The translations under genes and the position numbers were made by a program. Source: Halorussus limi (GTDB lineage Archaea; Halobacteriota; Halobacteria; Halobacteriales; Haladaptataceae). Taken from it: a stretch of 64,000 nucleotides of DNA. Positions 15,084 through 36,940 of this stretch are shown one piece after another. The DNA lies in the NCBI RefSeq assembly GCF_023238205.1, contig NZ_CP096659.1, positions 744,001 through 808,000 on the forward strand, in the 5' to 3' direction. The notes beneath the pieces were generated by a model, which was not told the DNA's origin, ran no database searches, and saw only the letters and a program-made list of their open reading frames with translations. Within the stretch, counting starts at the first letter, position 1; every line of letters begins with the position of its first letter.

Positions 15084-16267
15084 CTTGGACGCTAAGCGAC
15101 CATCGGATTTCGGAGGTACGCCTGAAAGTCGACGGGACCACCGAGAACACGACCACGGGCACACATACGCCCACTATCGAGTACTCCTCGATTGCAACGT
15201 ATCCCGGTGAATCCCATACGGTGACGTTGGTCGCTGAAATCAGCGCTGCGGTACGGAAACGGACCAAGACTTGCACTACCCGAGCCGCCGATGGTGAGTG
15301 CCAGTCGTGGAATGTTACCTCCGAACGCTCAGTCGAGACCGTTACCGTACGTGACTCGATCGACGTGGTTGAGTATGACCTCTCGGTCTCCGGATTCAAG
15401 ACGCGGTATCCCGATGGCGACCTCGGATTGGTCGTCTACAAGAACCATCCGTGGCGTGGCTATTCAATGTCGAACGGAGACGTGCGTGGCGTCTGGCGGT
15501 TCTACTCGGCAAGAGACCCCGCGTGGGATACGCTCGTGACGAGTACTGAGAACGGGGAGACAGTAGCGCCGTCGTCACTACAACCGCTCCAAGTACATGC
15601 CTATCCAAGCGAGACAGGGCCAACGGCGGTGCCGAGGCGGAGTGTACTGCTTCTGGACACCTACGGGACGAAAGAACGGCCGCCGTCGTTGCCGACTTCT
15701 GTCCGGCTTCAAGTGGTCGAACAGCCGTACATGACCAGTTACGGTATTGCGACTCGGGCACAGACACCGTCTCGAACGCTTTCAAACGTCACGGCGACTG
15801 GCCTCGTTCGCGGCGTCGATGCCGACGTAACTGACTCGTCGTTCGCTGATATTCCAGTCAACGAGAGTAACCTGACGATCAGCGTCGTCAACCGGACGGA
15901 AGAGCGGGTCACAGTCTCGGTAACGCTCTCGGATCGAACAACGGGCGACCCAATCAACACAACTGGCCGTACTGGCTACGTCGTCCTTGACGGAGAGCGC
16001 GTGAACACGTCCGAAAACGGAACCATCGTCAAAATCCTTACTCGGCCGAGTAGTGGTATCTCGGCACGCTACGAGCCAGGCCATTGGTGGCGACACGCCA
16101 CCGGCTACGTCGGCGATAGCGATAGTCGATACGTTCGGAGCGGCGGCCTCGATATCGCCTCGATATTGTATCGCATCGCCGTCTTCGCTTCTGTCTACCT
16201 CTTCGGCGTCTTCATCGTCAGTCGATTCACCGGCTGGAGACTCTGGCCACCGTGGAGGGGACTATGA
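15080..16267 (+). CDS. Ectodomain with C-terminal membrane anchor (split gene, part 2)
   Basis: 395 residues from GTG 15080, whose GTGA overlaps the previous stop. The protein is beta-rich with many sequons (NTTT, NVTS, NVTA, NESN, NRTE, NTTG, NTSE, NGTI), and near the C-terminus it has one hydrophobic helix (ASILYRIAVFASVYLFGVFI) followed by a short basic tail. That is a type I membrane topology with the long N-terminal part outside. There is no signal peptide in this frame, so export would require continuity with the preceding ORF. It probably forms an envelope-exposed part of the secretion or mating apparatus. Its stop overlaps the next ATG by 4 bases (ATGA). Confidence 0.65.
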   Translation: MTWTLSDHRISEVRLKVDGTTENTTTGTHTPTIEYSSIATYPGESHTVTLVAEISAAVRKRTKTCTTRAADGECQSWNVTSERSVETVTVRDSIDVVEYDLSVSGFKTRYPDGDLGLVVYKNHPWRGYSMSNGDVRGVWRFYSARDPAWDTLVTSTENGETVAPSSLQPLQVHAYPSETGPTAVPRRSVLLLDTYGTKERPPSLPTSVRLQVVEQPYMTSYGIATRAQTPSRTLSNVTATGLVRGVDADVTDSSFADIPVNESNLTISVVNRTEERVTVSVTLSDRTTGDPINTTGRTGYVVLDGERVNTSENGTIVKILTRPSSGISARYEPGHWWRHATGYVGDSDSRYVRSGGLDIASILYRIAVFASVYLFGVFIVSRFTGWRLWPPWRGL

Positions 16268-17655
16268 GTAGAAAACAAGCAACGCTACGACGCTTCGCGG
16301 CGCAACTACGGAATCGAATCTCTGCCAGAACACTAAGCGTAGCACCGTTAGCCGTCTTTGTGGGCCTAATCGTCGCCGTTCAACCTGCGCTTGCCCAGGA
16401 CGGCGGTGGTGGCTCGCTCGGTGACGTTATCGTCTGGGCGATCAAGGAAGCGCTCCGAGTCCTATTTAGTCCAATCAAGGGCGTCATCCAACAGCATGCG
16501 GACGCCCTCGTGACAACAGTCGTCGAGACACCGCATCCCGAAACGGTGTTCAGTCGGCCCACGAATGGTTCATGGCCGAAAATCTATGACTACTACTGGA
16601 ATGCTATTATCCCCGTCTCGCTGTTCCTGTACGCGCTTGCGCTCGGACTCGTGATCTTCCTCGAATCGACGAGCTACCTCTTCAGTAACTACCACCGGAC
16701 GAAACTCAAGAAGCGAGCCTTCTCGGGACTACTTGGACTGCTAGCTTGGTGGTGGGTCGATGCACTCGCTCGCCAACTACTGAGCGAGCTGACTGTCTTC
16801 TTAGTCCCCGATCTCTCGCAGGTGTCGCTGTTCCAGACGCTGTCGTTTAGTTCGATGGGAGCTCTCGGCGTCGTCCTTACCCTTAGTGCGGACTTCGGAC
16901 TGTTCGTCCTGTTGGCGCTCATCTATTTCCTGCGGCAGGTCGCCCTCTATCTGTTTACGCTCATGATGCCGCTGTTGATCGTGTTCTGGATTCCTGGTAT
17001 CGGGCCGTTCACCATGGTCTCTCGATTGATGAAACGGCTAGCAGGATTCTACGTCCCATTCTTGTTCATGACACTCCCGGTCGCGCTCCTGTTCCGTCTT
17101 GGAGAGCTTCTCGGGTCGAGCTTCAGCCTTTCGATGGGCGGAGTCGGTGCATGGCTCACAGCCCTCGTCATCCCCATCGTCGCCGTCCTGTCGCCGTTCG
17201 TCCTCTTCTGGCAGGCCGGAGCAATATTCTTCATGGCCGACCGCATCGGCCGCCACGCATCTGCGCGGCGGACGACAGGACGAATGAAGACCGCCCGCGA
17301 GCAGAGCCAGACGGTCGCCCAGGGTGGCCGAAACTTCGCTCGCGGCGTACGTGATGACTCGCCTGTGAGACAAGACGGACAGACGATGTCCGGGTCGGGT
17401 AACTCGCGGGCACACGCCGCAGGTTCAAGGCTCAATTCCGCGGGGACGCAACTCCGGGATAGCCTCCAAACGGACAGCGGTGAATCCGGCAGTACGTCGA
17501 ACGCTGGTGGCACGCAACGATCTGGCTCCAGTAGCCGCGACGTAACCCTCGAAAACCTTCGTTCTGACGACCGCCGTTCGAGTAGCTCGCAGAGCCAATC
17601 TGACGACCGTTCTGAGAATAACTCTGATTCAACCACTAGTTCCTCCAACCAATGA
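16264..17655 (+). CDS. Polytopic membrane protein, VirB6/TrbL-like
   Basis: 463 residues from ATG 16264. A signal-like segment ending in ALAQDG (about 45) is followed by about six or seven hydrophobic helices up to residue 330 and then a long Ser/Gln/Arg-rich hydrophilic C-terminal tail of about 130 residues. This layout, a multi-spanning core with a long polar tail, is that of VirB6/TrbL channel proteins of conjugative type IV secretion systems. It lies between the anchored ectodomain and the VirB3/PrgI-like gene and overlaps both by 4 bases. Sequence-level similarity to bacterial VirB6 cannot be judged by eye. Confidence 0.6.
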   Translation: MSRKQATLRRFAAQLRNRISARTLSVAPLAVFVGLIVAVQPALAQDGGGGSLGDVIVWAIKEALRVLFSPIKGVIQQHADALVTTVVETPHPETVFSRPTNGSWPKIYDYYWNAIIPVSLFLYALALGLVIFLESTSYLFSNYHRTKLKKRAFSGLLGLLAWWWVDALARQLLSELTVFLVPDLSQVSLFQTLSFSSMGALGVVLTLSADFGLFVLLALIYFLRQVALYLFTLMMPLLIVFWIPGIGPFTMVSRLMKRLAGFYVPFLFMTLPVALLFRLGELLGSSFSLSMGGVGAWLTALVIPIVAVLSPFVLFWQAGAIFFMADRIGRHASARRTTGRMKTAREQSQTVAQGGRNFARGVRDDSPVRQDGQTMSGSGNSRAHAAGSRLNSAGTQLRDSLQTDSGESGSTSNAGGTQRSGSSSRDVTLENLRSDDRRSSSSQSQSDDRSENNSDSTTSSSNQ

Positions 17656-18665
17656 AACAACGTGACCCAACGAAACGGATTCCGAAATCACTCGGTACAG
17701 ACACGAAACTATTCGGGAGTTACACACTGACGGATCTCTCAGTCGCACTCCTGCCCGGTGTCGTTGTCGTCCTCGTGATGCAGGTCGTTCTCCCGGCCGG
17801 TCTTACCGTCGGCGGGTATCGCGTCCAAGGACTAACGTTGCCCGTCGCTGGACTCGCAATCGCGTTCGGTGGATTGTTCGTCTATCTCACGCCGGCCTAC
17901 GCGTCGAGTCTCGACTGGCTAGCGACGTTCTTCGACTTCCATACGAGTTCGACTGAACACGCTCACGAAGAAGCAAAGGAGTATACGCAAGTCGAACAGG
18001 TCCATCCCGAGCGTGGTGCTATCGAACGGACCGACGGCGTCTTCGTCGGAATGGTACAGGTACGTCCGCCGACGATGGCCCTTGCAACTGACGCAGAGTG
18101 GGAGGCGAAGGCAACCGCCTTCCGTGACTTTCTGAATACGACCATCGATTTCCCGCTCCAGATTTACTCGACGACCCAGACGTTCCCTGCAGACGAGTAT
18201 CTGGACCGATACAGAAGTCGACTCGATGACGAAGACGTGCAATCGAACCCACAGCTCGAAGCGCTCATCGAACACTATGTCGAGTGGTACGAGGCGGAAC
18301 TCGACGAGCGCCAGATGACCATCCGTGATCACTACGTTATCATTCCTGTTGCACCACGGGAGGTGCAGTTCGAACGCGAGAGTCTGACACAGAAACTCGC
18401 CGAGCTACCGTATCTGGGCCTGTTCGTGCAGGCATGGTTCGCCCCGCGCCGTGCCGAACAGCAAGAAGCGATGGTCGATACGCTCAACGAACGCCTGCGG
18501 CAGGTCCAGACTGGACTTCGAGAAATCGACGGCTGTAACGCAGACCGAGTTGCTGTGACCGAAGCGACCCAACTCATCGGAGAGTTCTGGGCGGACGAGA
18601 ACCTCGACTACGGTGATATGGAGTCTGTTCTGCGAACGAGTCCGCTTGTTCGGAGCAATACATGA
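17652..18665 (+). CDS. Membrane protein in VirB3/PrgI position with cytoplasmic domain
   Basis: 337 residues. The N-terminus reads DPTKRIPKSLGTDTKLFGSY, followed by two hydrophobic helices (about 30-52 and 60-83) and a cytoplasmic domain rich in acidic residues (RGAIERTDGVFVGMVQVRPP, HYVEWYEAELDERQMTIRDH). A short two-helix protein directly upstream of VirB4 is the usual VirB3/PrgI arrangement. Here it is fused to a domain resembling the non-ATPase N-terminal region of VirB4 proteins, so VirB4 may be split over two genes. It overlaps both neighbours by 4 bases. Confidence 0.6.
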   Translation: MKQRDPTKRIPKSLGTDTKLFGSYTLTDLSVALLPGVVVVLVMQVVLPAGLTVGGYRVQGLTLPVAGLAIAFGGLFVYLTPAYASSLDWLATFFDFHTSSTEHAHEEAKEYTQVEQVHPERGAIERTDGVFVGMVQVRPPTMALATDAEWEAKATAFRDFLNTTIDFPLQIYSTTQTFPADEYLDRYRSRLDDEDVQSNPQLEALIEHYVEWYEAELDERQMTIRDHYVIIPVAPREVQFERESLTQKLAELPYLGLFVQAWFAPRRAEQQEAMVDTLNERLRQVQTGLREIDGCNADRVAVTEATQLIGEFWADENLDYGDMESVLRTSPLVRSNT

Positions 18666-20605
18666 TTCGAGAGAAACTACCCTTCTGGAGTAGTAGTGAA
18701 GAGACGGGCAGCGAACACGACGATAGTTCGGATAATCCGACTGTCGCGCATGAAAATGACACAGGTGACCTTGACACTATTCCGGACATTCACCAGACTA
18801 TCGTCACGCCGTCGAGTATCGACGAGCGACCGAACGCAGTTCAGACCGGGACGGATTGGACTCAGACGCTTTGGGTTGGGGAGTATCCCGATGCGCCCAC
18901 GGACGGCCTCTTCGAGTCGCTGTATTCGACGGCCGAAACACGCCAGACGGATATCTCACTCCATCTCGACCCACGCGATACGCGAGCGACTCTCGACTCA
19001 CTCGAAAACCAAATCGAGGACCTCGAAGCCGACTACGAATACCTCTCCGAGAAACGCCGTGCCGGAGCGCGTGGCGTCAAGAAAGACCTCGAAGACTACC
19101 AGGAGATGTACGACGTCCTTCGGAACACACCAACGAAGGCGTTCGATGTCTCGATGTATCTGGCCTCGCGTGGACCGTCTCAGAACGACCTTGGGACAGA
19201 TGCCGTCACCAGCACGGCACGGCGTTCACCTGCGAACCTGACACCGGTTACTCCTCGGTGGTCGCAACTGGACACGCTCATCTCTGGGAGTCCTGTCGGC
19301 GTCGACAAACTAAATGAGACGATGAATACGAAGACGCCGATGTTGAGCGGTGCAGTCGGCGCGATGTTCCCGTTCGTCTCTGGAGCCTTCGCCGAGCCCG
19401 GCATTGAGTATGGAACATACGCGCTCAACGAGAGTCCGCTAATCTTCGACCGTTTCAATCGAGAGACGGGCTACTGCATGATGGTCATCGGGAAACTTGG
19501 CGCAGGCAAGTCCTTCTCGACGAAACTCCACCTCACCCGGCGGGCAATGTACGACGAAGACTCGGTCATCGTCATGCTTGACCCCTTGGCTGGCTTCGCT
19601 GGCGTGAACGATACCCTCGGCGGTGAGCGCGTAACTGTCGGCGGGACGCGAGGGTTCAACCCCCTCGAGCTGAAGGCAACTCCAGACTCGGTGTTCGCAG
19701 AAGTACCGGACTTGGACCCGTGGGGAGAGCAGATCTCGTGGGTGCTCACGTTCTTCGAGACGTTCTTCGCTCACGTCGCCAACAACCCGCTCGGCGACCG
19801 CAAGCAGACGCTTCGCCGGACAGTTCAGGAGACCTACGAGCGACAAGGCATCACTCGTGACCCTGCGACGCATCACAAGGAATCGCCGACGGTACGAGAC
19901 GTTATCTCGACGCTTGAAGACCTCCTGCAGGATCCTGAGGCATTCGGGTATACCACTACAGGGGAACAGGATAGCGTCCGCGCTGATGCACAATCGCTTC
20001 TAAAAGATCTCCGGCCATCGTTCCGGCCTGAGGGAGACCTTGCTAACCTCGCACGTCAGGCCGAGTTCGACCTTGACTCGAAGGTCATCTATCTGGATCT
20101 CCACCAAGAGGAGGGGACACGTGGACGCACAGAGACGAGCCTGATGATGCAGGTTCTATTCAACGCGGTCTACGAGCGGGCCAAACAGACCGACAAGCGA
20201 GTCGTGTTCGTCATCGACGAAGCGCACTATTTGATGAACGACGCAACATCGCTAGAGTTCCTAGAGACGGCGGTGAGGCACAGTCGCCACTACGACCTCT
20301 CGATTCAGTTCATCACTCAGACTGGTGGAGAGTTTGCGTTGACGCCGGAGGCTCGGACGATTGCGAATCTTTGTTCGGTGACGCTCGTCCATCGCGTGAA
20401 AGAAGAAGCCGAGAAACTCGCTGAGTGGTTCGACTTGAGCGAGCGCGAGGTGAACTGGGTACGAACCGCAAAGGCCGGGAACGAAGACGATGGATTCTCT
20501 GAAGCATTGCTCGGTATCGACGAAGAAGGCTGGTTTCCGCTTCGTGTCCGGGCGAGCGACTTCGAAGCAGACGTTATCGATCGTGGCGGTGATCGTATGC
20601 GATAG
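18662..20605 (+). CDS. VirB4-family conjugation ATPase
   Basis: 647 residues. Walker A is GKLGAGKS at 277-284 and Walker B is VVFVIDEAHY with D519-E520, followed by SRHYDLSIQFITQTGGEF, the sensor region typical of VirB4/TraC/TrwK ATPases. The N-terminal 60 residues are acidic and probably flexible, and a coiled-coil segment lies at about 115-150 (LENQIEDLEADYEYLSEKRR). It would power assembly of the secretion channel at the inner face of the membrane. It is the last gene of the operon. A VirD4 coupling protein and relaxase do not follow, so the system is either partial or depends on genes elsewhere. Confidence 0.88.
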   Translation: MIREKLPFWSSSEETGSEHDDSSDNPTVAHENDTGDLDTIPDIHQTIVTPSSIDERPNAVQTGTDWTQTLWVGEYPDAPTDGLFESLYSTAETRQTDISLHLDPRDTRATLDSLENQIEDLEADYEYLSEKRRAGARGVKKDLEDYQEMYDVLRNTPTKAFDVSMYLASRGPSQNDLGTDAVTSTARRSPANLTPVTPRWSQLDTLISGSPVGVDKLNETMNTKTPMLSGAVGAMFPFVSGAFAEPGIEYGTYALNESPLIFDRFNRETGYCMMVIGKLGAGKSFSTKLHLTRRAMYDEDSVIVMLDPLAGFAGVNDTLGGERVTVGGTRGFNPLELKATPDSVFAEVPDLDPWGEQISWVLTFFETFFAHVANNPLGDRKQTLRRTVQETYERQGITRDPATHHKESPTVRDVISTLEDLLQDPEAFGYTTTGEQDSVRADAQSLLKDLRPSFRPEGDLANLARQAEFDLDSKVIYLDLHQEEGTRGRTETSLMMQVLFNAVYERAKQTDKRVVFVIDEAHYLMNDATSLEFLETAVRHSRHYDLSIQFITQTGGEFALTPEARTIANLCSVTLVHRVKEEAEKLAEWFDLSEREVNWVRTAKAGNEDDGFSEALLGIDEEGWFPLRVRASDFEADVIDRGGDRMR

Positions 20606-20677: not shown

Positions 20678-20703
20678 GCTATAGCACTCTCCCAAATCGG
20701 GTG

Positions 20704-22107
20704 ATGGTCTCCGGGTACCGGTATCGAGTGTTAAGCGTCGTCGGCACGGCGTTCATTGCGGTTCTCGCCGTCCTGATTGCGAACGCCTCCTCTTTACAGA
20801 TGCTGTTTACGACTGCGGTCCCGGTGTTCCGGCGATTACCAGCGACCGTGTTGGCTGGCAATAAGCTCGTTTTGGTCGTCGTGACGACGACGCTCGTCGT
20901 TGTTGGTTCGCTGGTGCCGCTGTTCAAACCCTGGCCGCGGCGGATTCTCGATACGATTCTCCACACCCAGCGGCGCACGGTCACCGCCTGCCTCGCGCTC
21001 GCCACTATCGGGTACTTCGACTATACGTATCGACTCCCTCGCTCTACGCTCGTACTGGCGACGGCCGTACTCCTCGTTGGCCTTCCGATGTGGTTCGTGG
21101 CAATTCGTCGTCGACCATCGAACCAACACCGGGCAGTCATCGTGGGTGACGATCCCGAGGAGATCGCCGACGTGCTGGACGAAATCGACGTGCCGGTGGT
21201 TGGTTACGTCTCACCGCCGAGTCCGTACTACACCGACAGTGAAGAGGTTTCGAGTAAGCCTGCGGTCGCCGACGGTAGCGGTGAAGCACTGTTGGCGGAC
21301 TTGGACTGCCTCAGCGGCCTCTCACGACTCGACGAGGTACTCGTCGATTACAACGTCGATACGGTGGTGCTGGCGTTTGCCCAGCCCGACCGCGCGGAGT
21401 TCTTCGGCGCGCTCGACACCTGTTACGACCACGGCGTCGACGCGAAGGTACATCGAGAACACACCGACGACGTGTTGACGACGACGGCCAACCCGGACGA
21501 CATTCTCGTAGACATCGAACTCGAACCGTGGGACTGGCAGGACTACGTGTTCAAGCGTGTGTTCGACATCGCCTTCGCGTTCGCCGGACTATTGGCATTT
21601 GCCCCCTTTATATTCGTCATCGCAGTGGCGATCAAGCTCGACAGCTCAGGACCAGTCCTGTACAGCCAAGAGCGGACCGCGGAGTTCGGCGACACGTTCA
21701 CAGTCTTCAAGTTCCGGACGATGGTTCCTGAAAACGAGTCGGCGACGCCCATCGATGACGAGGCGAACGACCGTATTACTCGCGTCGGGCGGTTCCTCCG
21801 CAGGACACATCTTGACGAGGTCCCCCAACTGTGGTCGATTCTCATAGGACAGATGAGCGTCGTCGGACCGCGAGCGGTCTGGACCGACGAGGAGCAACTG
21901 CTGGAGGAGACGACGGATATGTGGCGCAAGCGGTGGTTCGTCAAGCCCGGACTTACCGGCCTCGCCCAGATCAACGACGCTAAAAGTACGGACCCGACCG
22001 CGAAACTCCGGTACGACCTCAAATACATACGTCGCCAGTCGTTCTGGCTCGACGTGAAAATCGTGGTCCGTCAGATCTGGAAAGTGCTCTCTACCGCTAC
22101 GGAGTGA
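20704..22107 (+). CDS. Polyprenyl-phosphate sugar-1-phosphate transferase (WbaP/WcaJ type)
   Basis: 467 residues from ATG 20704; a GTG lies one codon upstream. Four or five N-terminal membrane helices are followed by a central CoA-binding-like domain (HRAVIVGDDPEEIADVLDEI) and a C-terminal bacterial sugar transferase domain. The latter shows VFDIAFAFAGLLAFAPF, VFKFRTMVPENE, LRRTHLDEVPQLW, GQMSVVGPRA and PGLTGLAQIN, the family signature. The enzyme moves a sugar phosphate from a nucleotide sugar to a lipid carrier (dolichyl phosphate in archaea), the committed first step of lipid-linked glycan assembly. It is the first gene of the locus, with a leaderless promoter. Confidence 0.92.
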   Translation: MVSGYRYRVLSVVGTAFIAVLAVLIANASSLQMLFTTAVPVFRRLPATVLAGNKLVLVVVTTTLVVVGSLVPLFKPWPRRILDTILHTQRRTVTACLALATIGYFDYTYRLPRSTLVLATAVLLVGLPMWFVAIRRRPSNQHRAVIVGDDPEEIADVLDEIDVPVVGYVSPPSPYYTDSEEVSSKPAVADGSGEALLADLDCLSGLSRLDEVLVDYNVDTVVLAFAQPDRAEFFGALDTCYDHGVDAKVHREHTDDVLTTTANPDDILVDIELEPWDWQDYVFKRVFDIAFAFAGLLAFAPFIFVIAVAIKLDSSGPVLYSQERTAEFGDTFTVFKFRTMVPENESATPIDDEANDRITRVGRFLRRTHLDEVPQLWSILIGQMSVVGPRAVWTDEEQLLEETTDMWRKRWFVKPGLTGLAQINDAKSTDPTAKLRYDLKYIRRQSFWLDVKIVVRQIWKVLSTATE

Positions 22108-22233: not shown

Positions 22234-25215
22234 ATGACTGACGTACGCGAGGCGACCGACGACCTCCTCGCGGAGAAACCAAATCTCGAATCGGACCTGC
22301 GCGAAGTGCTCTCGGTCGACGAGCGCACTAACGGGTGGTCCTTTGACGACGTGCCACTCGACTCGGGGACGTTCGGCGAACTCGTCTCGCGCGACATCGT
22401 CGCCAAGGACAGTGACGCATACGAAGTAAGAGACCCCCGCGCTGTTCGGGCGGTCCTCGACGGCGATTCCGACACTGCGGTCGAATCCGAACGCGGCGAC
22501 GGACCGAACCTCCCGTCGCTGTCGCTTCCATCGGTGTCGATAGCGGAGGCGGGCGCGCTCGGTGCCGCGTTGGCGTTCGTCCTGCTGATGCGAACCTACA
22601 TCTATCCGAGCGTATTCCGCGGCGACTATGTCGTCCTCCCCTCGAACGACCCATACTACTACCGCTACTGGGTCGAGCAACTCGCCGCGGACGCGACTGG
22701 TATCTTCGACTTTAGTGTGCTTTCCAGGGTTCCCAGCGCAGTGGCGAAAGGCGAACCCCTGATGGTCGGAACGCTGTGGTGGCTCACCAACCTGCTCGGC
22801 GGGGCCGACGCCGCGGGATGGGTGCTGGCGTGGTACCCCGTCGTCTCCGCGCTCCTCGTCGGGGTGCTGGTGTACGGTATCGCGGTCCGGGTGACTGGTG
22901 ATCGGCGAGTTGCACTCGCGTCGGTCGTGTTTCTCGCCGTGATTCCGGCGTTCGCCTACCGAACGGGGCTCGGATTCGCCGACCACCACGCCTTCGACTA
23001 CCCGTGGCTCGCGCTGACCGCGCTTGCGCTGGTCCTGCTGGCCGACGTGGACCGAAATGACTTGGCCGAGATTCGGCCGTGGCTGGCGGCGGGCGTGTTG
23101 GGCGTCGCAGTGGCCGGACAGGTGATGGCATGGGAAGCCGGACCGCTACTCATCGGTGCGCTCGGTGCCTACGTCGCCGTTCGGGCCGCCGTAGACGTTC
23201 GAGTCAATCGGTCGCCGCTCGTGTCGAGTACGCCGATTCTGGTCGGACTGGCGTTCGCATCGGTGCTCACCCATCTCGCTCACACCGGCTTCGGATGGCA
23301 TACCGACGTAGTGGCCTACTCGCCGATGCTGTTATTCGTCGGCGTGCTGGCCGTGTCACTTGCCGGCGAAGCAGTCCGTCGGGCCGAGATGCCAGCGTTC
23401 GTCCTCGGCGGGGCCGAAGTCGCCGGTGTGCTGACCGGCTTGTTGGTTCTCCAGACGTTCCTGCCGACGTACGCCGCCCGATTGAACCAGCGGCTGACCT
23501 TCCTCCTGTTCAAGTCGGGACCGGCGGAGACCCAGTCGATATTCGCGGGCGGTGCGTCCGGATTCTTTATCGGCCCGATTCTCGAACTCGGCTTCGCGTG
23601 GTTCCTCGGCTTGCCGATGTTGGCGCTGGTCGGGTGGCGGGCCTACCGGCAGGAACGCCGTGCGTGGCTCGTCGTCTCTACCTACGGGTGGTACTTCCTC
23701 GTGCTGGCAACGTTCCAGCGGCGGTTCGTCGGCGAGTTCGCGCCCTTCATCGCCATCTTCGCGGGCTACGGCTTCGTCGTCCTGTCTGCCAAGCTGGACG
23801 TGACTTCACCGGTCGCGCTCGGCGATGACGAACCGCATGGCGAGACGTGGCGACCGTTGTTCGGGCTCCCGGAACGGGGTACGGTCACGATGGTTGTGAT
23901 CCTCCTGCTGTTCGTGACTAGTGCGGGCGCGGTGCAGACCGGCGTCCGACACGAGCAGGTTAAAATCGAGGACGAGAAGTTCGAGGCCGCGACGTGGATC
24001 GATGAGTACGCCGACGAGCAAGGGTTGGAGTATCCGGAGAACTACGTACTGAGCAAGTGGGGTCGCAATCGTGTCTATAATTACTTCGTGAACGGCGAGG
24101 CGAGGTCATACAAGTTTGCAGAGAACCACTACGAATCATTCCTCTCTTCGCGGAATCCCGAATCACAATATCAAAAGCTGAACGATAGGGTTGGGTTCAT
24201 CGTCACGAAAGACATCGACGTGCAGAAGGTTCCGAAGAACTCCAACTACGCCCGACTCCATCACCGGTTCGGAAGTGCCGGAACCAACGGCCGGACTGGC
24301 GCAGGTCATTACCGGGCGCTCTACGCCAGTGACAGCAAGTCGATCAAAGTGTTCGGACTCGTCCCAGGTGCGAGGATTGTCGGCAACGCTTCGCCGGGCG
24401 AGAAGGTGACGATCTCAAAGGAAGTCGAAGTTGAAGGCGCGAAGTTCGACTACGAGCGGACGGTAAAGGCCAACCCCTACGGGGTTTTTAGCGTGACCGT
24501 TCCGTACGCCGGTAAGTACACCGTCGACGGAGACACCCAGTCGGTCTCCGAAGTCGCAGTGACTTCGGGGCAGCTCGTGAAATCTCACCGGCGAAGCGGC
24601 CTCGCGCATTGGCCGTTTGAGAAGGCCAGGGACAAAGCGGTGTACGATCGAGTCGGCGGCCATCGCGGAACGGTGAACGGATCTACATCGCAGGTAGACG
24701 GCGTCTCAGGAAAGGCGCTGGCATTCGATCAGAACAAGACGAAGTACGTCGAAATGAACGTAACTGCCCCCCAGCAGTTCACGCTCAGCCTGTGGGTGAA
24801 GCCCGACCGAATCGACGTAACCGAGAAGAACGACTATCGCCGCCTGATTAGCAGTCCAGATCTCTCCAACGTTCTCGTCATCGGTGAGGGCAGACAAATA
24901 GTATTCCGTGTTCCTGGAGTTGAGAGAAGTTACTTCGGAGCGAGCGAGGTTCCGGTCGGTGAGTGGTCCCAAGTCACGGCCACCTACAACGGTACTCACC
25001 GAACGATTTACGTGAACGGCACGCAGGTCGGAACCGACAGAATCGGCAACAGAATAGTCGACTGGAACGGACAACTCCGACTTGGAAGCGGATACAGTGG
25101 GGAAACACGGCACGCCTACAACGGTGCAATAGACGAGGTTCGCATCTTCGACCGCGCACTTACGCCGGAAGAGGTCCGTCAGCGCTACGAGGCGGATAAC
25201 GCAACTGCGACGTAA
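22234..25215 (+). CDS. AglB/STT3-type oligosaccharyltransferase with C-terminal LamG-like domain
   Basis: 993 residues. After a 100-residue soluble N-terminus, about a dozen membrane helices carry the first acidic motif SNDPYYYRYW (about 139-148) and the second acidic motif ADHHAFDYPW (about 249-258), as in STT3/AglB. The soluble region should hold WWDYG; the corresponding site reads SKWGRNRVYNYF with W609, a known-looking haloarchaeal variant lacking the Asp. From about residue 790 the sequence becomes a concanavalin-type LamG domain (FTLSLWVKPDRID, WSQVTATYNGTHRTIYVNGT, GAIDEVRIFDRALTPEEVR). The enzyme should transfer a lipid-linked glycan to Asn of exported proteins; the lectin-like tail could bind glycan. 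It is probably a paralogue of the housekeeping AglB. Confidence 0.88.
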   Translation: MTDVREATDDLLAEKPNLESDLREVLSVDERTNGWSFDDVPLDSGTFGELVSRDIVAKDSDAYEVRDPRAVRAVLDGDSDTAVESERGDGPNLPSLSLPSVSIAEAGALGAALAFVLLMRTYIYPSVFRGDYVVLPSNDPYYYRYWVEQLAADATGIFDFSVLSRVPSAVAKGEPLMVGTLWWLTNLLGGADAAGWVLAWYPVVSALLVGVLVYGIAVRVTGDRRVALASVVFLAVIPAFAYRTGLGFADHHAFDYPWLALTALALVLLADVDRNDLAEIRPWLAAGVLGVAVAGQVMAWEAGPLLIGALGAYVAVRAAVDVRVNRSPLVSSTPILVGLAFASVLTHLAHTGFGWHTDVVAYSPMLLFVGVLAVSLAGEAVRRAEMPAFVLGGAEVAGVLTGLLVLQTFLPTYAARLNQRLTFLLFKSGPAETQSIFAGGASGFFIGPILELGFAWFLGLPMLALVGWRAYRQERRAWLVVSTYGWYFLVLATFQRRFVGEFAPFIAIFAGYGFVVLSAKLDVTSPVALGDDEPHGETWRPLFGLPERGTVTMVVILLLFVTSAGAVQTGVRHEQVKIEDEKFEAATWIDEYADEQGLEYPENYVLSKWGRNRVYNYFVNGEARSYKFAENHYESFLSSRNPESQYQKLNDRVGFIVTKDIDVQKVPKNSNYARLHHRFGSAGTNGRTGAGHYRALYASDSKSIKVFGLVPGARIVGNASPGEKVTISKEVEVEGAKFDYERTVKANPYGVFSVTVPYAGKYTVDGDTQSVSEVAVTSGQLVKSHRRSGLAHWPFEKARDKAVYDRVGGHRGTVNGSTSQVDGVSGKALAFDQNKTKYVEMNVTAPQQFTLSLWVKPDRIDVTEKNDYRRLISSPDLSNVLVIGEGRQIVFRVPGVERSYFGASEVPVGEWSQVTATYNGTHRTIYVNGTQVGTDRIGNRIVDWNGQLRLGSGYSGETRHAYNGAIDEVRIFDRALTPEEVRQRYEADNATAT

Positions 25216-25221
25216 CGTCGG

Positions 25222-26505
25222 TCACCACGTCAGTCCTTGGTAGGTGATTCCGTTCCGACGCTCTACGGTTCTGCGGCCGTCGACGACGACAGAGTCTGTC
25301 ATTGCGTCGAACTTGTCATCCAATGTCGCGAACTCTTCCTAGTCAGTCACGATTAGTGCGCCGTGCGTCTCGTCAAGTACCTCGGCGGCCGACTCGGTGT
25401 ACTCGATGTCGGGGAAGTGCTCCCGCATGTTTTCAGTCGCTACTGGATCGTAGGCAACGATTTTGGCGTTACGCTCGCGGAGGCTCTCAATGATGGGAAT
25501 CACGGGGAGTTACGCACGTCGTCAGTGCCGGGCTTGAATGCCAGTCCGAGAACGGCCACGCCCTTTCCGGCGGGGTTGAGATGTAATTCAAGTAGGTCGA
25601 GCATACGCTTAGGCTGCTCGTCGTTGACCTTGACTGCGGCTTCTAACAGGCTAGGGTCGTAGTCTGCGTCTTTAGCTATGGCAATCAGCGCGGGCACATC
25701 TTTCGGGAAGCAACTGCCGCCCCATCCCACACCCGAACAGAGGAACCGCTCGCCGATGCGGTCGTCCATGCCCATTGCCTCTGCGACTTCGTAGGCGTCT
25801 ACACCGTACTCCTTGCAGAGGTTCCCGAGTTAGTTGACTAGACTCACCTTGGTCGCGAGGAAGGCGTTGTTGGCGTACTTTATCATCTCTGCTTCTCGAA
25901 TCCCCGTCTCGACTAGTTCAGCGTCGGAATCAGCGAACAGAGGGTCGAACACCTCTCGAAGCCAGTCGCAGGTGAAGTCACTCCGAGTGCCGAACACCAC
26001 CTTGTCCGGATTCTTGAAGTCCGAGACTGCGCTTCCCCCGGAGGAACTCGGGGTTCATCGCCACATGGAGGTCCTCGCCCAGTTTCTTCACCGCTGCTTC
26101 GGCCACGAGTGGTGCAATAGTCTCCTCGGTCGTACCTGGAACCACCGTGGGTTTGACCATGTGCGGATCGTCTTTCGCGGCGAGGGCCTCGCCGAGTGAG
26201 CGTGCGCCAGCTTTCATCGCCGATAGGTCAATGCTACCGTCTTCACGCGACGGTGTCGGAAGCGCGAGCAAGGTCACGTCCGTCTTGCGGATCATGCCGT
26301 AGTCGGTCGTCGAGTTAAATCAATCCCCACCGCATTCTGAAACGAGTCCGTCCAACCCTGTTTCGTCGATGGGCTCGTCTCCGTCCTCGATGGCCGCCAC
26401 GAGTTTCTCGTCGATGTCGACGTTCGTCACCTCGTGTCCGTAGTCGGCGAGACAGGCTACCACGGTGGTCCCGGCATATCCGCTTCGGACGATGCTGACG
26501 TTCAT
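25222..26505 (-). pseudogene. UDP-sugar 6-dehydrogenase (UDP-glucose/ManNAc dehydrogenase family), decayed
   Basis: Pieces of one protein lie in order on the minus strand. The Rossmann start MNVSIVRSGYAGTTVVACLA is followed by an in-frame TGA near 26320, then TDVTLLALPTPSREDGSIDL and STVVPG-like sequence to MNPEFLR. A frameshift leads to DKVVFGTRSDFTCDWLREVF, then a nonsense codon in KVSLVN[13 protein letters not shown] near 25830. The catalytic-Cys region [14 protein letters not shown] is next, then [18 protein letters not shown], another stop and the end [13 protein letters not shown]. At least four lesions make it inactive, although the catalytic Cys codon survives. The intact ancestor would oxidise a UDP-sugar to a uronic acid for glycan synthesis (AglM-like). 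It is convergent with aglB. Confidence 0.88.
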
Positions 26506-26735: not shown

Positions 26736-27456
26736 ATGAAAGCCGTCGTGCTAGCCGCCGGAGAAGGAACTCGGCTTCGACCTCTGACCGAGGACAAGTC
26801 GAAGGAATGGTCGAAGTGGACGGAAAGCCGATTCTGACCCACTGCTTCGACCAACTGGCCGAACTGGGGGCCGACGAGTTCGTAGTCGTGGTGGGATACC
26901 GCAAACAGGACATCATTGAGTACTACGGCGACAAATACGAGGGTATCCACATCACGTACGCTCACCAGTGCGAATAGAAGGGACTTGCCCACGCGTTGCT
27001 CACCGTTGAGGAACACTGAGGACGACTTCATGCTCATCTTGAGCAATAACATCTTCGACGCGAATCTGGATGACGTAGTAAAACGCCAACAGGAGTACAG
27101 CGCTGATGCTGCCTTCCTCACCGAGGAAGTGCCCTATGAAGAAGCTAGTCGGTACGGGGCCTATGACACCAACGACTACGGCGAGATCACTGACGTGGTG
27201 GAGAAGCCCGAGGACTCGCCGTCGAACCTCGTGATAAGGGGCTTCTACACGTTCACGTCCGCTATCTCGTTCAACCTCCAACCGCGGTGAGTACGAGATC
27301 AGCGAGGCCATCGACCTCCTCATCCAGAGCGGCCGCACCATCGACGCCATCCGGATGGACGGCTGGCGCGTCGACGTCGGGTACCCCGCAGACCGCGACC
27401 GGGCCGAGCGCCTCATCCGCGGCGAGGACTCCGAGGCCGAGGTCGCAAAATCATAG
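26736..27456 (+). pseudogene. Sugar-1-phosphate nucleotidyltransferase (AglF-like), decayed
   Basis: The start MKAVVLAAGEGTRLRPLTED is the canonical nucleotidyl-binding motif. A frameshift near 26805 interrupts before MVEVDGKPILTHCFDQLAEL. In-frame stops follow at HQCE-stop-KGLAHALL (26976-26978) and after LLTVEEH. Reading then resumes with FMLILSNNIFDANLDDVVKR, SRYGAYDTNDYGEITDVVEK and, after another shift near 27285, EYEISEAIDLLIQSGRTIDA and WRVDVGYPADRDRAERLI, to TAG 27454-27456. The residues are otherwise well conserved, so inactivation seems recent. The ancestor would make a nucleotide-activated hexose. It lies between the dehydrogenase and epimerase pseudogenes. Confidence 0.88.
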
Positions 27457-28364: not shown

Positions 28365-29756
28365 ATGAGTGACGAACCTAACGTATTCATACTTTCGGCT
28401 GATTCTCTAAACCAGCAGTATTTTTCCGATTTCCTCCCCGAGTTAGCAGACCTCGTTAATGCCGTCGACTTTACCGATGCAATTGCAACCGCCTCGGACA
28501 CGAACTCGGCGATGCCGGGATTGGCGACGAGCGTCTACTCTGACTCGGTCCCCGGATGGGGCCTCCCAGACGAGGACCCACCGGTAACGATCGCTGAACG
28601 ACTGGCGAAGAGCGGATACGACTGTGGCCTCTGGACCGACAACTACCTGTTCGGGGAAGAGTACAACTACACTACCGGGTTTAGCGCGGGGAACCTTGGA
28701 ACCCCGACATGGAAGAAGCGTCTCGTCAACGCCATCCGGGAAAGCCCGTTTGAGCAGACTCTAAATATCGCTGAATGGGTCTATTTCAATGTCTTCTCCC
28801 AACTGAAGGGGAAAATCGCATCCGAAGAATCGTTCTATCGAACGGCCGAAGACCTTCATTCGAGCGCGTTGGAGTGGATTCGAACGTCTAACGATAGTCC
28901 GACGTTCTGTTGGATTCACTACATGGACACGCACCATCCGTACGAACCGCCGAGCGACTACCTCAATCCGATATCGTTTAACGAGAGCAGAAGTCGCTCG
29001 AAACTCGGGGAGTTCACCCGGAACGTTATCAAAGCGAACGGGGAGGGATTTTCCGACTCAGAAATAGAAGACGTCCGGAAGGCGTACCGGGCGTCCTGCC
29101 GCTACCTCTTTGAGGAGGTTAGACGATTTATCCAGATCCTCGTAGAGGAGAACCATTTCAAGCCGAGTAAAGACGTTCTCGTGTTCACGGCCGATCATGG
29201 GGAGTGTCTCTCACCGAGAGAACACGGAGTGATGGGACACGTCCCACCTGCATTCTGGGAGGAAATTGTGAACGTACCACTACTCGTCAGTAGACCCAAT
29301 TGGGACCGTGAAACGGTCGAGGGACAGGTGAGTCTAATCGACGTTATGCCGACGATTCTCGATGCGGTAGGAGTAGACATCCCCGGTTCGGCGGAAGGTA
29401 CCGCTTGGAGAACTCCGAAAGACGCAGTTGTCGAGCAGTCTATGTTCGTATCGGAGTGGCAAGCGACCAACTGGGACTCTCGCCAAACGTATCGCGGTGT
29501 CCGCACGGACGCGGGGTGGAAGCTTTTTGGTGCACATAAGGATGGAACCGACGTCGGAATACTGGCACGCCGGTCTCCAGAGGATTCCGAGGAGGAGGTT
29601 TACATCGGTGACAGCAATCCTATGGGTGAATTCGGTGACCGCTGGCACGAACTTTCCGCCGAACTCGATCGGGGACCCATTCTCGGGACGGACGAAAAGA
29701 TCGAGACTGAGGACTCCGTCGAAGACCACCTGCGCGACCTCGGTTACGTCGAATAG
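28365..29756 (+). CDS. Sulfatase / alkaline phosphatase superfamily protein
   Basis: 463 residues. Metal-site features of the superfamily are present: the early Asp-Ser in LSADSLNQQYF and the late Asp-His in FTADHGECLSPREHGVMGHV, with a WIHYMDTHHPYEPP block. The nucleophile region reads TNSAMPGLATSVYSD, without the C/S-x-P-x-R formylglycine signature, so sulfatase maturation is doubtful. It could be a phospho- or sulfo-group hydrolase or transferase acting on glycan precursors. No signal peptide or membrane helix is visible, which points to the cytoplasm. It lies inside the glycan locus next to a GT4 transferase on the opposite strand. The C-terminal DHLRDLGYVE is a common haloarchaeal sulfatase ending. 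Confidence 0.82.
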   Translation: MSDEPNVFILSADSLNQQYFSDFLPELADLVNAVDFTDAIATASDTNSAMPGLATSVYSDSVPGWGLPDEDPPVTIAERLAKSGYDCGLWTDNYLFGEEYNYTTGFSAGNLGTPTWKKRLVNAIRESPFEQTLNIAEWVYFNVFSQLKGKIASEESFYRTAEDLHSSALEWIRTSNDSPTFCWIHYMDTHHPYEPPSDYLNPISFNESRSRSKLGEFTRNVIKANGEGFSDSEIEDVRKAYRASCRYLFEEVRRFIQILVEENHFKPSKDVLVFTADHGECLSPREHGVMGHVPPAFWEEIVNVPLLVSRPNWDRETVEGQVSLIDVMPTILDAVGVDIPGSAEGTAWRTPKDAVVEQSMFVSEWQATNWDSRQTYRGVRTDAGWKLFGAHKDGTDVGILARRSPEDSEEEVYIGDSNPMGEFGDRWHELSAELDRGPILGTDEKIETEDSVEDHLRDLGYVE

Positions 29757-29760
29757 TCCG

Positions 29761-31029
29761 CTAGCCGTCGACCTTCGACAATTGTTCGTGATACTGTTTG
29801 AGAGACCGTTGCTTATTGAACTCCTGCTCAAACACCTCTCGAGCGCGTTCTCCCATCTTTTCGGTCATTTCCGGGTCATCAAGCCATCGTGTAATTGCGT
29901 CGACGATCTGGTCGGGAGACTGCGGGTCGACGCGGATTCCACAGCCCGTCCGTTCGACGACTCGACCGATTTCAGAGTCGGGTTTCGAAATCGCCAAGAC
30001 CGCCTGCCCGCTCGCGAGTGCAGTATAGAACTTGCTCGAAACACATAGACCCTCGACGCCCTCTTCCATCGTCACGAGCGCGATGTCGCCGGACGTCAGC
30101 GAATCGGGGAGTACTTCCTTAGGCTGGTACGGCAAGAACGAGACCGTGTCGAGCCCGTAGTCCGCTGCCATCTCCATCAGCTTAGGCTTCTTACCACCCT
30201 CGCCGATGAAGAGAAACTCGAACTGGTCAGATACGCTGCGACGTGTTTTCTCCAGTTTACTCGCGGCCTCGACGACACTCTCAAGGTCGTGATGGAGCCC
30301 AAGGTTTCCGGAGTAAAGCACCGTCGTTGGTTCAACGAGGTTGTGTTCCCAGGAGAACTCGTTCTCGGTTTTCTGCTGGGGTTGGATGAATTCACCATCC
30401 TCCCAGTTGTGGATGACAGTGACGTTACATTCCTCCCCGTACTTACTGACGAGCGTCTCTTTCATCGTCTCACCGATTGTTATCACCTCGTCTGCACGCC
30501 GATACGCACAGCGGTTGAGCCAGTCCCACACGCGATAGACGACACCGTCCTCGGAGAGGTACCCCAGTTCCACTGCCATATCAGGATAGAGGTCGTAGAC
30601 GACGGGGACGTAGGAGTAGCCGCGGATGGTCCCGAGCCACCACCCGAGGATGGGGAGGAACGGTGGTGCAGTTGGGAGCAGGAGCGTTTGCTTTCGACGA
30701 CTGAACAGGAGGTGCAAGAACGCACTTAAGAAGAACGATACATCATTCAGTAGACGGTACTTCGTTCCCTCGTTCTTGTCGAATCGCGTCGCAATGATTC
30801 GCCGGATAGGGACACCTTCGTACACCTCAAACTTCGGTTCTGTTCGTTCCCTGTCCGCAGACGAGTACGCGGGTTGGCCAGTGAGTACGTCGATATCGAC
30901 TCCACGGTCGGCGAGACCTATTGCCAGTTCGGTCAGAATCGTGGCATTTGCAGAGGTGTCCGGATGGAAGAATTGAGTCACCATCTTCACGGAAGGCCCC
31001 TCCCATTTGTCGTTCGTGTTCTCAGGCAT
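29761..31029 (-). CDS. Glycosyltransferase family 4 (WbuB-like)
   Basis: 422 residues from ATG 31029; the frame is open 90 bases further but without domain sequence. The N-terminal domain (VTQFFHPDTSANATILTELA, VLTGQPAYSSADR, GVPIRRIIATRF) and the GT-B C-terminal donor site (VLYSGNLGLHHDLESVVEAA, FLPYQPKEVLPDSLTSGDIA, SSKFYTALASGQAVLAI with the terminal EIGRVVE) match WbuB-type GT4 transferases, which act on N-acetylated deoxysugars in O-antigen pathways. It is cytoplasmic or peripheral at the membrane and adds a sugar to the lipid-linked chain. It is convergent with the sulfatase gene. Confidence 0.88.
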   Translation of the reverse strand: MPENTNDKWEGPSVKMVTQFFHPDTSANATILTELAIGLADRGVDIDVLTGQPAYSSADRERTEPKFEVYEGVPIRRIIATRFDKNEGTKYRLLNDVSFFLSAFLHLLFSRRKQTLLLPTAPPFLPILGWWLGTIRGYSYVPVVYDLYPDMAVELGYLSEDGVVYRVWDWLNRCAYRRADEVITIGETMKETLVSKYGEECNVTVIHNWEDGEFIQPQQKTENEFSWEHNLVEPTTVLYSGNLGLHHDLESVVEAASKLEKTRRSVSDQFEFLFIGEGGKKPKLMEMAADYGLDTVSFLPYQPKEVLPDSLTSGDIALVTMEEGVEGLCVSSKFYTALASGQAVLAISKPDSEIGRVVERTGCGIRVDPQSPDQIVDAITRWLDDPEMTEKMGERAREVFEQEFNKQRSLKQYHEQLSKVDG

Positions 31030-31163
31030 GTTTGTCCGTGAGTCTTCGCCCGGGGTATAATAAACAACTGAAAACCACTTGGAGTAGTTTTCGTGTCGAA
31101 GATAATTGAGTCGCATCACACCGAATCCGCAGGAATTAGGTACCCCAGTGAGAGGGAAGAGAT

Positions 31164-32174
31164 ATGGACTGGAAAGATGACAGAGTCCTCGTTACTGGTG
31201 GTGCCGGGTTCATCGGTAGCCACCTCACGGAACGCCTCCTCGAATTGGGTACCGAAGTCGTGGTCGCCGACGACTTCTCCCGCGGCTCCCGCGAGAACAT
31301 CGAACACCTCCTCAACGACATAGAGCTCCGGACGGTCGACCTGACGACTCACAAGGGGTGCGTCGAAGCGACCGAGGGCGTCGACCATGTCTTCCACCTG
31401 GCGGCCAGCGTGGGCGGCATCCACTACATCCAGCGCGAGAACGTCGGTGGACTCACCCCCAGCGTACTGATGAACCAGAACATGCTGGAGGCTGCCCGCA
31501 TCAACGACGTGGACCGCCTCCTGTTCGCCTCAAGTGCCTGCATCTACCGCCAGCAGCATGACGACCTCAACCGGTTCAGCGAGGACCAGGCCATCCCTGC
31601 GAACCCTCACAGTACCTACGGGTGGGCCAAGGTCCTCGGTGAGGTCGCCTGCGAGGCCTACCACGAAGACTGCGACCTCGACACGGCGATGGTCCGCATC
31701 TTCAACTGCTACGGGCCGCGCGAGAGCCTCGACCCTGACAGCAGTCACGTCATCCCGTCGCTGTGCCGGAAGGTTATAGAAGAACCCGACGGTGGGTCCA
31801 TCGAACTGTTCGGTGACGGCACCCAGCAGCGGGGCTTCATCTACATCGCCGACCTCGTGGAGGGGATGATCCGCGCCATTGAGAAGAAGGTCGATGGCGA
31901 ACCCGTCAACCTCGGTAACGGCGACGAGGTCGTCACTATCAACGAACTCGCCGAGACCATCGTCGACATCTCGGGCAAGGACATCTCCATCCAGCACGAC
32001 CTCTCGAAGCCGACTGGCACCGACAAGTACGCCGCCGACGACACGAAAATGAAGGAAGAACTCAACTGGGAGCCGACCGTCAAGTTCGAGGTCGGCGTCA
32101 AAGAGGTGTACGACTGGGCAAAGGAGCAACTCGACGCCGAGAAAGCTGCCGCCACGGCGGGTGGTTCCCAATGA
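31164..32174 (+). CDS. NAD-dependent sugar epimerase (extended SDR) 1
   Basis: 336 residues. NAD site VLVTGGAGFIGSH (about 8-20), active-site STYGWAK (YxxxK) with the preceding SSACIY, and substrate strand IFNCYGPRESLDPDSS. The length and SSACIYRQQ/ASVGGIHYIQRENVGG features resemble GDP-mannose 3,5-epimerase-like extended SDRs. It should convert one nucleotide sugar to its epimer for the glycan. Its stop overlaps the next epimerase start by 4 bases (ATGA), so the pair is co-translated. This gene and its neighbour are more GC-rich than the flanking sulfatase and GT genes, suggesting a separate origin. Confidence 0.9.
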   Translation: MDWKDDRVLVTGGAGFIGSHLTERLLELGTEVVVADDFSRGSRENIEHLLNDIELRTVDLTTHKGCVEATEGVDHVFHLAASVGGIHYIQRENVGGLTPSVLMNQNMLEAARINDVDRLLFASSACIYRQQHDDLNRFSEDQAIPANPHSTYGWAKVLGEVACEAYHEDCDLDTAMVRIFNCYGPRESLDPDSSHVIPSLCRKVIEEPDGGSIELFGDGTQQRGFIYIADLVEGMIRAIEKKVDGEPVNLGNGDEVVTINELAETIVDISGKDISIQHDLSKPTGTDKYAADDTKMKEELNWEPTVKFEVGVKEVYDWAKEQLDAEKAAATAGGSQ

Positions 32175-33187
32175 GCTTCGACAGCGAGCGCGTGCTCGTA
32201 ACGGGCGGGGCGTCGTTCATCGGGTCACACCTCGTGGAGGACCTCGTCGAACGGGGGGCGCGCGTGCGAGTGGCCGACGACTTCTCCAGCGGTACCATCG
32301 AGAACCTCGCGGCGGTCAAAGACGAGATCGAAGTGTTGGACGGCAACCTCAAACGCCGGTCGTTCGCCGAAGAGGCCACGCAAGACATCGACCGCGTCTT
32401 CCACCTCGCTGCCGACCATGGCGGCCGAGGATACATCTCAAACTACCCCGCGAACTGCGCCACCAACATGGCGCTGGACAACATCGTCTTCGAGACGGCG
32501 GTCGAGAACGGCGTCGAGAAGATCACCTTCGCCTCCAGCGCGTGTACCTATCCCACGGACATCCAGCAGGAGCAGCGCCCACTCCGCGAAGACATGGTGA
32601 GCTTCGACGAGCGTGGTGGCGCGTACGCCGACGAGGCCTACGGCTGGGCGAAACTAATGGGTGAGCGCTCCCTGCAAGCGTTCCACGAGCAGTACGGCGT
32701 CGACGCGAGTGCAGTCCGGATCTTCACCGCGTACGGTCCCCGGGAGAACGAGACCCACGCCATTGTCGCCCTCATCGCGAAGGCCTACGCTGAGCAGGAC
32801 CCCTACCAAATCTGGGGCGACGGTGAGCAGACCCGCAACTTTACCTACGTCTCGGACATCGTGAGCGCGCTCGTGCTGGCCAACGAGAGGATCTCGGACG
32901 CCACACCGGTCAACGCCGGGATACCAGACTACATCTCTATCAACGAGGTCGCGGAGGCCATCTTCGACTACCTCGACTGGGAGCCTGACGAGATAAATCG
33001 GATGACCGACAAACCGGTCGGGGTCCGCCACCGCGCGGCTGACACGACCCGTGCCGAGGAGCTACTGGGCTGGGAGCCCGAGCACTCGCTCAAAGACGGG
33101 ATGGCCGAGACCATCGACTGGTACGTCGAGAATCGGGACAAGGGGTACGTCCAAGAGAATCTGGAGACACTGCTCCACGAGCGGTAA
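32171..33187 (+). CDS. NAD-dependent sugar epimerase (extended SDR) 2
   Basis: 338 residues. NAD site VLVTGGASFIGSH, with Ser in place of the usual third small residue, catalytic SSACTYP and EAYGWAKLMGE (YxxxK), and RIFTAYGPRENETH. It is related to the adjacent epimerase but clearly not a recent duplicate. It overlaps that gene by 4 bases. Together they may perform two successive epimerisation or dehydration steps on one nucleotide sugar. The exact substrate cannot be read. It is followed by a convergent GT4 gene only 6 bases away. Confidence 0.9.
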   Translation: MSFDSERVLVTGGASFIGSHLVEDLVERGARVRVADDFSSGTIENLAAVKDEIEVLDGNLKRRSFAEEATQDIDRVFHLAADHGGRGYISNYPANCATNMALDNIVFETAVENGVEKITFASSACTYPTDIQQEQRPLREDMVSFDERGGAYADEAYGWAKLMGERSLQAFHEQYGVDASAVRIFTAYGPRENETHAIVALIAKAYAEQDPYQIWGDGEQTRNFTYVSDIVSALVLANERISDATPVNAGIPDYISINEVAEAIFDYLDWEPDEINRMTDKPVGVRHRAADTTRAEELLGWEPEHSLKDGMAETIDWYVENRDKGYVQENLETLLHER

Positions 33188-36876: not shown

Positions 36877-36940
36877 ACAAATGAGTATGTCGGTTTGTTC
36901 GAGACTGGTGCAAGTCCGATGCGACGATTTCACGCAGTTG

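Follow-up and report, generated by a model that had tools for sequence, protein, structure and literature searches.

A haloarchaeal AglB paralogue with a rewritten WWDYG site is a candidate second oligosaccharyltransferase

The DNA analyzed here, referred to as the window, is a stretch of 64,000 nucleotides from Halorussus limi (contig NZ_CP096659.1, positions 744,001 to 808,000). The gene at 22234-25215 of the window encodes a 993-residue paralogue of AglB, the archaeal oligosaccharyltransferase (OST), in which the WWDYG motif has been rewritten. The features of the gene and its product, with the strand given in parentheses, are as follows.

22234-25215 (+): AglB-like transferase without WWDYG, 993 residues; uninterrupted open reading frame, coordinates exact
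22234-22479 (+): N-terminal domain, residues 1-82, predicted cytosolic, EMC3/TMCO1-insertase-like (hmmsearch, hhalign)
22552-23958 (+): GT-C transmembrane core, about residues 107-575 (superposition on 3waj)
22645-22650 (+): first acidic motif N138-D139 (N138-D139-P), invariant in the family
22981-22989 (+): second acidic motif D250-H251-H252 (G247-F-A-D250-H-H252), from the alignment to AglB
23527-23529 (+): E432, counterpart of the TIXE/SVSE glutamate (profile alignments; 99% conserved)
23722-23724 (+): R497 of QxRF, counterpart of the arginine of the AglB QxRF motif (alignments)
24055-24081 (+): rewritten WWDYG, K608-W-G-R-N-R-V-Y-N616 (profile alignment; W609, R613 and N616 invariant)
24367-24582 (+): AglB_L1 peripheral domain, residues 712-783 (PF18079, E 1.9e-10)
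24595-25200 (+): ConA/LamG-like domain, residues 788-989 (PF13385; superposition on AbnA domain 4)

The protein is an AglB-type paralogue and not AglB proper. The NCBIfam model of haloarchaeal AglB, TIGR04154, gives it 164.8 bits, below the cut-off of 450, and the STT3 family of Pfam matches weakly at residues 113-307. The canonical AglB of the host is encoded elsewhere in the genome (C1:3376682-3379450), contains WWDYG and scores 918.8 bits with TIGR04154. An AlphaFold2 model of the paralogue, calculated from an alignment of 62 family members, has a mean predicted local distance difference test score (pLDDT) of 91.2. Residues 107-786 of the model superimpose on the AglB of Archaeoglobus fulgidus (3waj) with a Z score of 37.9 and a root mean square deviation (rmsd) of 3.8 over 593 residues. 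The next best matches, at Z scores of 25-33, are to eukaryotic STT3 and bacterial PglB.

A first-pass annotation of the window, made from its letters, had proposed that a LamG-like domain is fused to the C terminus, and the domain is indeed present. Laminin_G_3 (PF13385) matches residues 843-981 with an E value of 1.1e-26 (94.2 bits against a Pfam cut-off of 27.6), and residues 788-989 of the model superimpose best on the fourth domain of AbnA (Z 22.4, rmsd 2.3 over 186 residues, 23% identity). Because PF18079 sits earlier in the chain (712-783) and residues 788-989 superimpose on ConA-like domains, this part of the model is distinct from the ordinary peripheral domain of AglB. Its matches to other jelly-roll lectin domains were taken to reflect a common fold only and were given no functional weight. 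At the opposite end of the chain, ahead of the first transmembrane helix, residues 1-82 are homologous to the N-terminal domain of haloarchaeal EMC3/TMCO1-like proteins (best hmmsearch E value 7.5e-16; hhalign E 1.5e-12 at a probability of 97.7) that carry PF01956 of the Oxa1 superfamily. This insertase-type domain was absent from all 30 canonical AglBs compared. It may place the paralogue near the ribosome or translocon.

The correspondence of residues to AglB was established by profile-profile and HMMER alignments. Both acidic membrane motifs are kept, as had been noted from the sequence, with D139, D250 and H252 aligning with AglB; the alteration of WWDYG, also noted then, turned out to be a property of the whole family. 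K608-W609-G610-R611-N612 fall on W-W-D-Y-G in the context VLS-K608-W609-G-R-N-R613-V-Y-N616. Across 80 non-redundant homologues there is no variation at N138, D139, R497, W609, R613 and N616, conservation of E432 reaches 99%, and the second acidic motif reads DHH in 64 members and EHR in 16. The signature W-x-x-[NSV]-R-x-x-N is found in 84 of 84 family members and in none of the 30 canonical AglBs; conversely, WWD occurs in none of the 84 paralogues, and WWDYG in all 30 canonical proteins. A MAFFT alignment with a single AglB had suggested that the TIXE glutamate is lost. This was overturned by the profile-profile and HMMER alignments, which place E432 at that position. Around the kinked helix on which OSTs have a DK or MI motif, the alignment to AglB is unreliable. 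We take R497 to be the arginine that engages the lipid-linked donor, a role adopted from what is known of AglB and PglB.

In OSTs metal binding and activation of the acceptor amide are tasks of the acidic residues in the membrane part, and the Trp-Trp-Asp of WWDYG, a motif described as plastic, builds the pocket for the Ser/Thr at position +2 of the sequon (PMC3703281). Read with these roles, the alignment shows a preserved donor and metal half of the active site next to a rewritten +2 pocket. The invariance of the new residues indicates that the rewritten pocket is under strong constraint.

A sample of 393 genomes from across the phylum contained the family in 44, all of which belong to the order of the host, Halobacteriales; no relatives with an E value of 1e-40 or better were found outside that order among the 393 genomes. 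Within the order 39 genomes were sampled; 20 of them have the paralogue, and each of these 20 also encodes a canonical AglB. The LamG domain, which the first-pass annotation had regarded as the telling feature of the system, occurs in only 20 of the 84 members, with about nine gains or losses on the tree, and was confirmed by Pfam in eight members besides the protein of the window. The altered motif is thus a property of the whole family and the LamG domain a sporadic addition, and the fusion was dropped as the defining feature. The family-wide signature, the co-occurrence with a sugar-phosphate transferase, the insertase-type N-terminal domain and the Halobacterium salinarum orthologue beside an S-layer gene are stronger points. 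Relatives occur in six haloarchaeal plasmid records, none from Halobacterium, where they are annotated as 'STT3 domain-containing', 'LamG-like jellyroll' or hypothetical proteins; no relative was found in viral contigs. Database annotation knows the family only in parts, as 'STT3 domain-containing' or 'LamG-like jellyroll' proteins, and no paper describing it was found in a literature search that had most subscription papers beyond its reach.

The paralogue is closely associated with sugar-phosphate transferases of the PF02397 family. The gene at 20701-22107, directly upstream of the OST gene, is the sole PF02397 gene in the host genome. Within the 39 genomes of the order, a PF02397 gene is present in 19 of the 20 with the paralogue versus 7 of the 19 without it (Fisher 1.4e-4). 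In 16 of those 19 paralogue-bearing genomes the coordinates put it no more than 50 kb from the paralogue, and in none is it that close to the canonical AglB. In homologous loci from other species, a PF02397 gene is found inside the flank in 37 of 53, in the company of UDP-glucose dehydrogenases, nucleotidyl transferases, epimerases and GT4 enzymes. Because the paralogue tracks a WbaP/PglC-type transferase, a pyrophosphate-linked donor is implied.

The neighboring genes in the window agree with the earlier description of a Wzx/Wzy-type locus next to a WbaP-like transferase, the polymerase match being just under its cut-off.

20701-22107 (+): WbaP/PglC-type polyprenyl-phosphate sugar-1-phosphate transferase (PF02397, E 1.9e-59, 200.6 bits against 27; TIGR03025)
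25225-26505 (-): decayed UDP-glucose dehydrogenase (AglM-like) with stops and frame changes (tblastn pieces)
26916-27290 (+): nucleotidyl transferase fragment (AglF-like; PF00483)
29761-31119 (-): GT4 glycosyltransferase
31164-32174 (+): NAD-dependent sugar epimerase
32171-33187 (+): NAD-dependent sugar epimerase
33194-34336 (-): GT4 glycosyltransferase
35743-36951 (-): GT4 glycosyltransferase
36941-38497 (-): Wzx-type flippase (PF01943, E 2.4e-15, 57.1 bits against 28.2)
39654-41201 (-): probable oligosaccharide repeat-unit polymerase, Wzy-like (TIGR04370, 37.6 bits, cut-off 40)

An FkbM methyltransferase is also encoded in the window, and two proteins of the sulfatase superfamily (28365-29756 and 34461-35660) lie within the glycan locus. 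Conjugation-type genes occupy 14149-20605, ending just ahead of the sugar-phosphate transferase; they include TrbL/VirB6-like (16252-17655), TrsD-like (17652-18665) and VirB4-like (18662-20605) genes. Both OST copies of Halorussus aquaticus (loci L034 and L036) have the same set upstream, and Halorussus halobius (L039) has a VirB4-like gene close to its OST. Because conjugation genes recur beside the OST genes of Halorussus, the OST gene may be carried along by a mobile element. The G+C content is about 0.50-0.64 in the first 42,000 nucleotides of the window and 0.65-0.72 from 42000 to 64000, and this step at 42 kb marks off a genomic island in which both the glycan and the conjugation genes lie.

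The S-layer glycoprotein of Hbt. salinarum bears a repeating-unit N-glycan at Asn-2, and its transfer is sensitive to bacitracin, which indicates that the glycan comes from a lipid pyrophosphate (PMC2952790). The glycan consists of 10-15 repeats, is linked by GalNAc and is derived from dolichyl pyrophosphate (PMC8674786). Glycosylation still occurs when Val, Leu or Asn takes the place of Ser-4; with a single OST gene found, this result was left without explanation (PMC2952790). The role of AglB in attaching this glycan has been called unclear, and a novel OST may exist (PMC6591318, PMC3871713).

Genome G064 contains an intact family member of 773 residues (767.8 bits) with the motif SRWSRNRLYN and 37% identity to the protein of the window. 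The bacteriorhodopsin of this genome is 100% identical to that of Hbt. salinarum, and on this match we take G064 to be Hbt. salinarum. The paralogue gene begins 3.3 kb downstream of what is presumably the S-layer glycoprotein gene, recognized by its known signal peptide (MTDTTGKLRAV...) and composition. The interval between the S-layer gene and the OST gene (L138:10893-14235) encodes a secreted protein, a LolD/MacB-like ATP-binding cassette ATPase and a MacB/FtsX-like permease. The paralogue is followed by glmS and glmU-like genes, and the sole PF02397 gene of the genome, whose product is 58% identical to that of 20701-22107, lies 5.2 kb downstream. Among 13 Halobacterium genomes the paralogue is present in four of the five with an S-layer protein of the G064 type and in none of the other eight (p 0.007), and PF02397 in three of the four with the paralogue and in none of the other nine (p 0.014), although both p values are optimistic because the genomes are related. 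The distances between paralogue and S-layer gene in Halobacterium are 3.3, 4.1, 19.5 and 48 kb. In G095, a remnant of a family member (C1:214037-214520) lies between two copies of the S-layer gene, about 48 kb from a LamG-bearing and only distantly related copy. The mature S-layer protein of G064 would begin Ala-Asn-Ala-Asp, with Asn-2 present and the sequon Ser absent, and in two relatives that have the paralogue it begins Ala-Asn-Ala-Ser. The correlation between Asn-2 and the paralogue is mixed; it is suggestive and was not used as proof.

In the reading that we favor, and regard as probable with some reserve, the 993-residue protein is a second OST of the host, which uses a pyrophosphate-linked donor and obeys a different acceptor rule. 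A second glycosylation system of this kind had been proposed in the first-pass annotation and is still the best reading; the housekeeping AglB is encoded elsewhere in the genome. The WbaP/PglC-type neighbor would load the first sugar-phosphate onto polyprenyl or dolichyl phosphate, giving a pyrophosphate-linked carrier. The GT4 enzymes would lengthen the glycan, Wzx would flip it and the Wzy-like enzyme may polymerize it. The paralogue would then transfer the glycan to a secreted surface protein by means of an AglB-type site (D139, D250, H252, E432, R497); transfer of a polymer is possible. The computations show the fold, the motifs kept and lost, the family, the linkage to the sugar-phosphate transferase and the position beside the S-layer gene; catalysis, donor, acceptor and a link to the translocon are inferred. 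Because the Trp-Trp-Asp pocket for position +2 is replaced by x-W-G-x-N-R-x-Y-N, the acceptor rule is expected to differ from Asn-X-Ser/Thr; because the residues for metal binding and amide activation remain, Asn is still the most likely acceptor, selected with no need for the +2 hydroxyl. The insertase-type domain at the N terminus may keep the enzyme close to the translocon; the LamG domain, where present, probably serves to grip the glycan or the cell surface. In Hbt. salinarum the orthologue is, by its genomic position, the best candidate at hand for the OST that places the repeating-unit glycan, made from a lipid pyrophosphate, on Asn-2 of the S-layer protein.

Several observations weigh against this reading. 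In one branch of 16 members, from Natrialba-type genera and Natronomonas (e.g. L073, L070 and L082), EHR..Q replaces DHH..D with the rest kept, and this branch may have a changed metal site or reaction. The UDP-glucose dehydrogenase and nucleotidyl transferase genes beside the OST of the window are both decayed. The placement in Hbt. salinarum is that of genome G064, and the older work was done with strains close to the laboratory strains R1 and NRC-1. In G160, which has the paralogue, the mature S-layer protein does not begin with Ala-Asn. In G095 the paralogue bears LamG, stands apart from the other Halobacterium ones and has no PF02397 gene in its genome. A TIGR04370-type polymerase was not found in the 13 Halobacterium genomes, G064 included, other types of Wzy being possible, and the polymer step in G064 is thus left unexplained.

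The loss of the sequon pocket would also suit two readings in which the acceptor is not Asn. A polysaccharide or capsule ligase would move the Wzx/Wzy-made glycan to lipid or to a surface polysaccharide instead of protein; the Wzx/Wzy-like genes, the WbaP-like initiator and a fused ConA-like domain that could hold a polysaccharide would suit such an enzyme. The AglB-type soluble domain and the amide-site residues are nevertheless kept, and the Halobacterium orthologue adjoins the gene of the S-layer protein and tracks that S-layer type, so that a ligase appears unlikely. We consider it more doubtful still that the protein is an O-glycosylating transferase acting on Ser/Thr of the S-layer protein or pilins. 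The lost pocket counts in its favor, as does the presence of O-glycans on haloarchaeal S-layers (PMC2952790). To our knowledge, no transferase for these O-glycans has been identified. However, the enzyme retains the acidic and Glu residues with which OSTs bind the acceptor amide, and the known haloarchaeal O-glycans are short disaccharides and not products of a pyrophosphate pathway.

The overall AglB fold, the AglB_L1 domain and the plasticity of WWDYG (PMC3703281) would allow the protein to be a plain duplicate of AglB, still acting at Asn-X-Ser/Thr sites with a pocket rebuilt from other residues. This is improbable given a distinct invariant signature in 84 of 84 members, a TIGR04154 score far under the cut-off (164.8 versus 450) and the different gene company. 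A catalytically dead, regulatory pseudo-transferase, to which the changed motif and the EHR variant of one branch might point, is hard to reconcile with 99-100% conservation of D139, E432 and R497 across the family and the strong linkage to a donor-making enzyme, and we give it very little credence.

A wider proposal, that a second, translocon-associated OST of haloarchaea transfers pyrophosphate-linked glycans, polymeric in some species, to Asn without a Ser/Thr at +2, and that in Hbt. salinarum it is the missing Asn-2 enzyme, is put forward tentatively, as one that we judge to have somewhat less than an even chance. If true, it would explain the result of the Ser-4 mutagenesis. Across all life, N-glycosylation is taken to be marked by WWDYG and the Asn-X-Ser/Thr sequon; because OSTs are recognized by WWDYG, a second one may have been missed. 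A family that keeps the catalytic centre and has the sequon pocket replaced throughout would be a natural system in which to learn, and perhaps change, the acceptor rule. For Hbt. salinarum, it offers a defined, deletable candidate gene for the questions of which enzyme attaches the second S-layer glycan and why the sequon Ser is ignored.

Among known systems, haloarchaeal AglB (TIGR04154) shares with the paralogue the GT-C core, the D/DxH motifs, the TIXE-Glu and QxRF residues and the AglB_L1 domain. The paralogue differs from it by the lack of WWDYG, a signature of its own, a shorter soluble part, the insertase-type N-terminal domain, other gene company and the optional LamG domain. The closest solved fold is that of AglB-L from A. 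fulgidus (3WAJ, 7E9S), which is 20% identical and has WWDYG. The OST for the Asn-2 glycan of Hbt. salinarum would use a pyrophosphate donor, dispense with the sequon Ser and have the S-layer protein as its target (PMC2952790, PMC8674786, PMC6591318), and its connection to the paralogue is genomic. The N-terminal domain of about 80 residues is homologous to that of the haloarchaeal EMC3/TMCO1-like insertase (PF01956), the remainder of which is unrelated, and domain 4 of the GH43 arabinanase AbnA (5HO2/5HON) has the ConA-like fold in common with the OST-fused domain. The Pgl system of Campylobacter (PglC, flippase, PglB), like the locus in the window, combines a sugar-phosphate transferase, glycosyltransferases, a flippase and a single-subunit OST with a pyrophosphate carrier. 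Campylobacter PglB, however, keeps WWDYG and the sequon, whereas the locus described here has a probable Wzy-like polymerase and a putative OST with a rewritten pocket.

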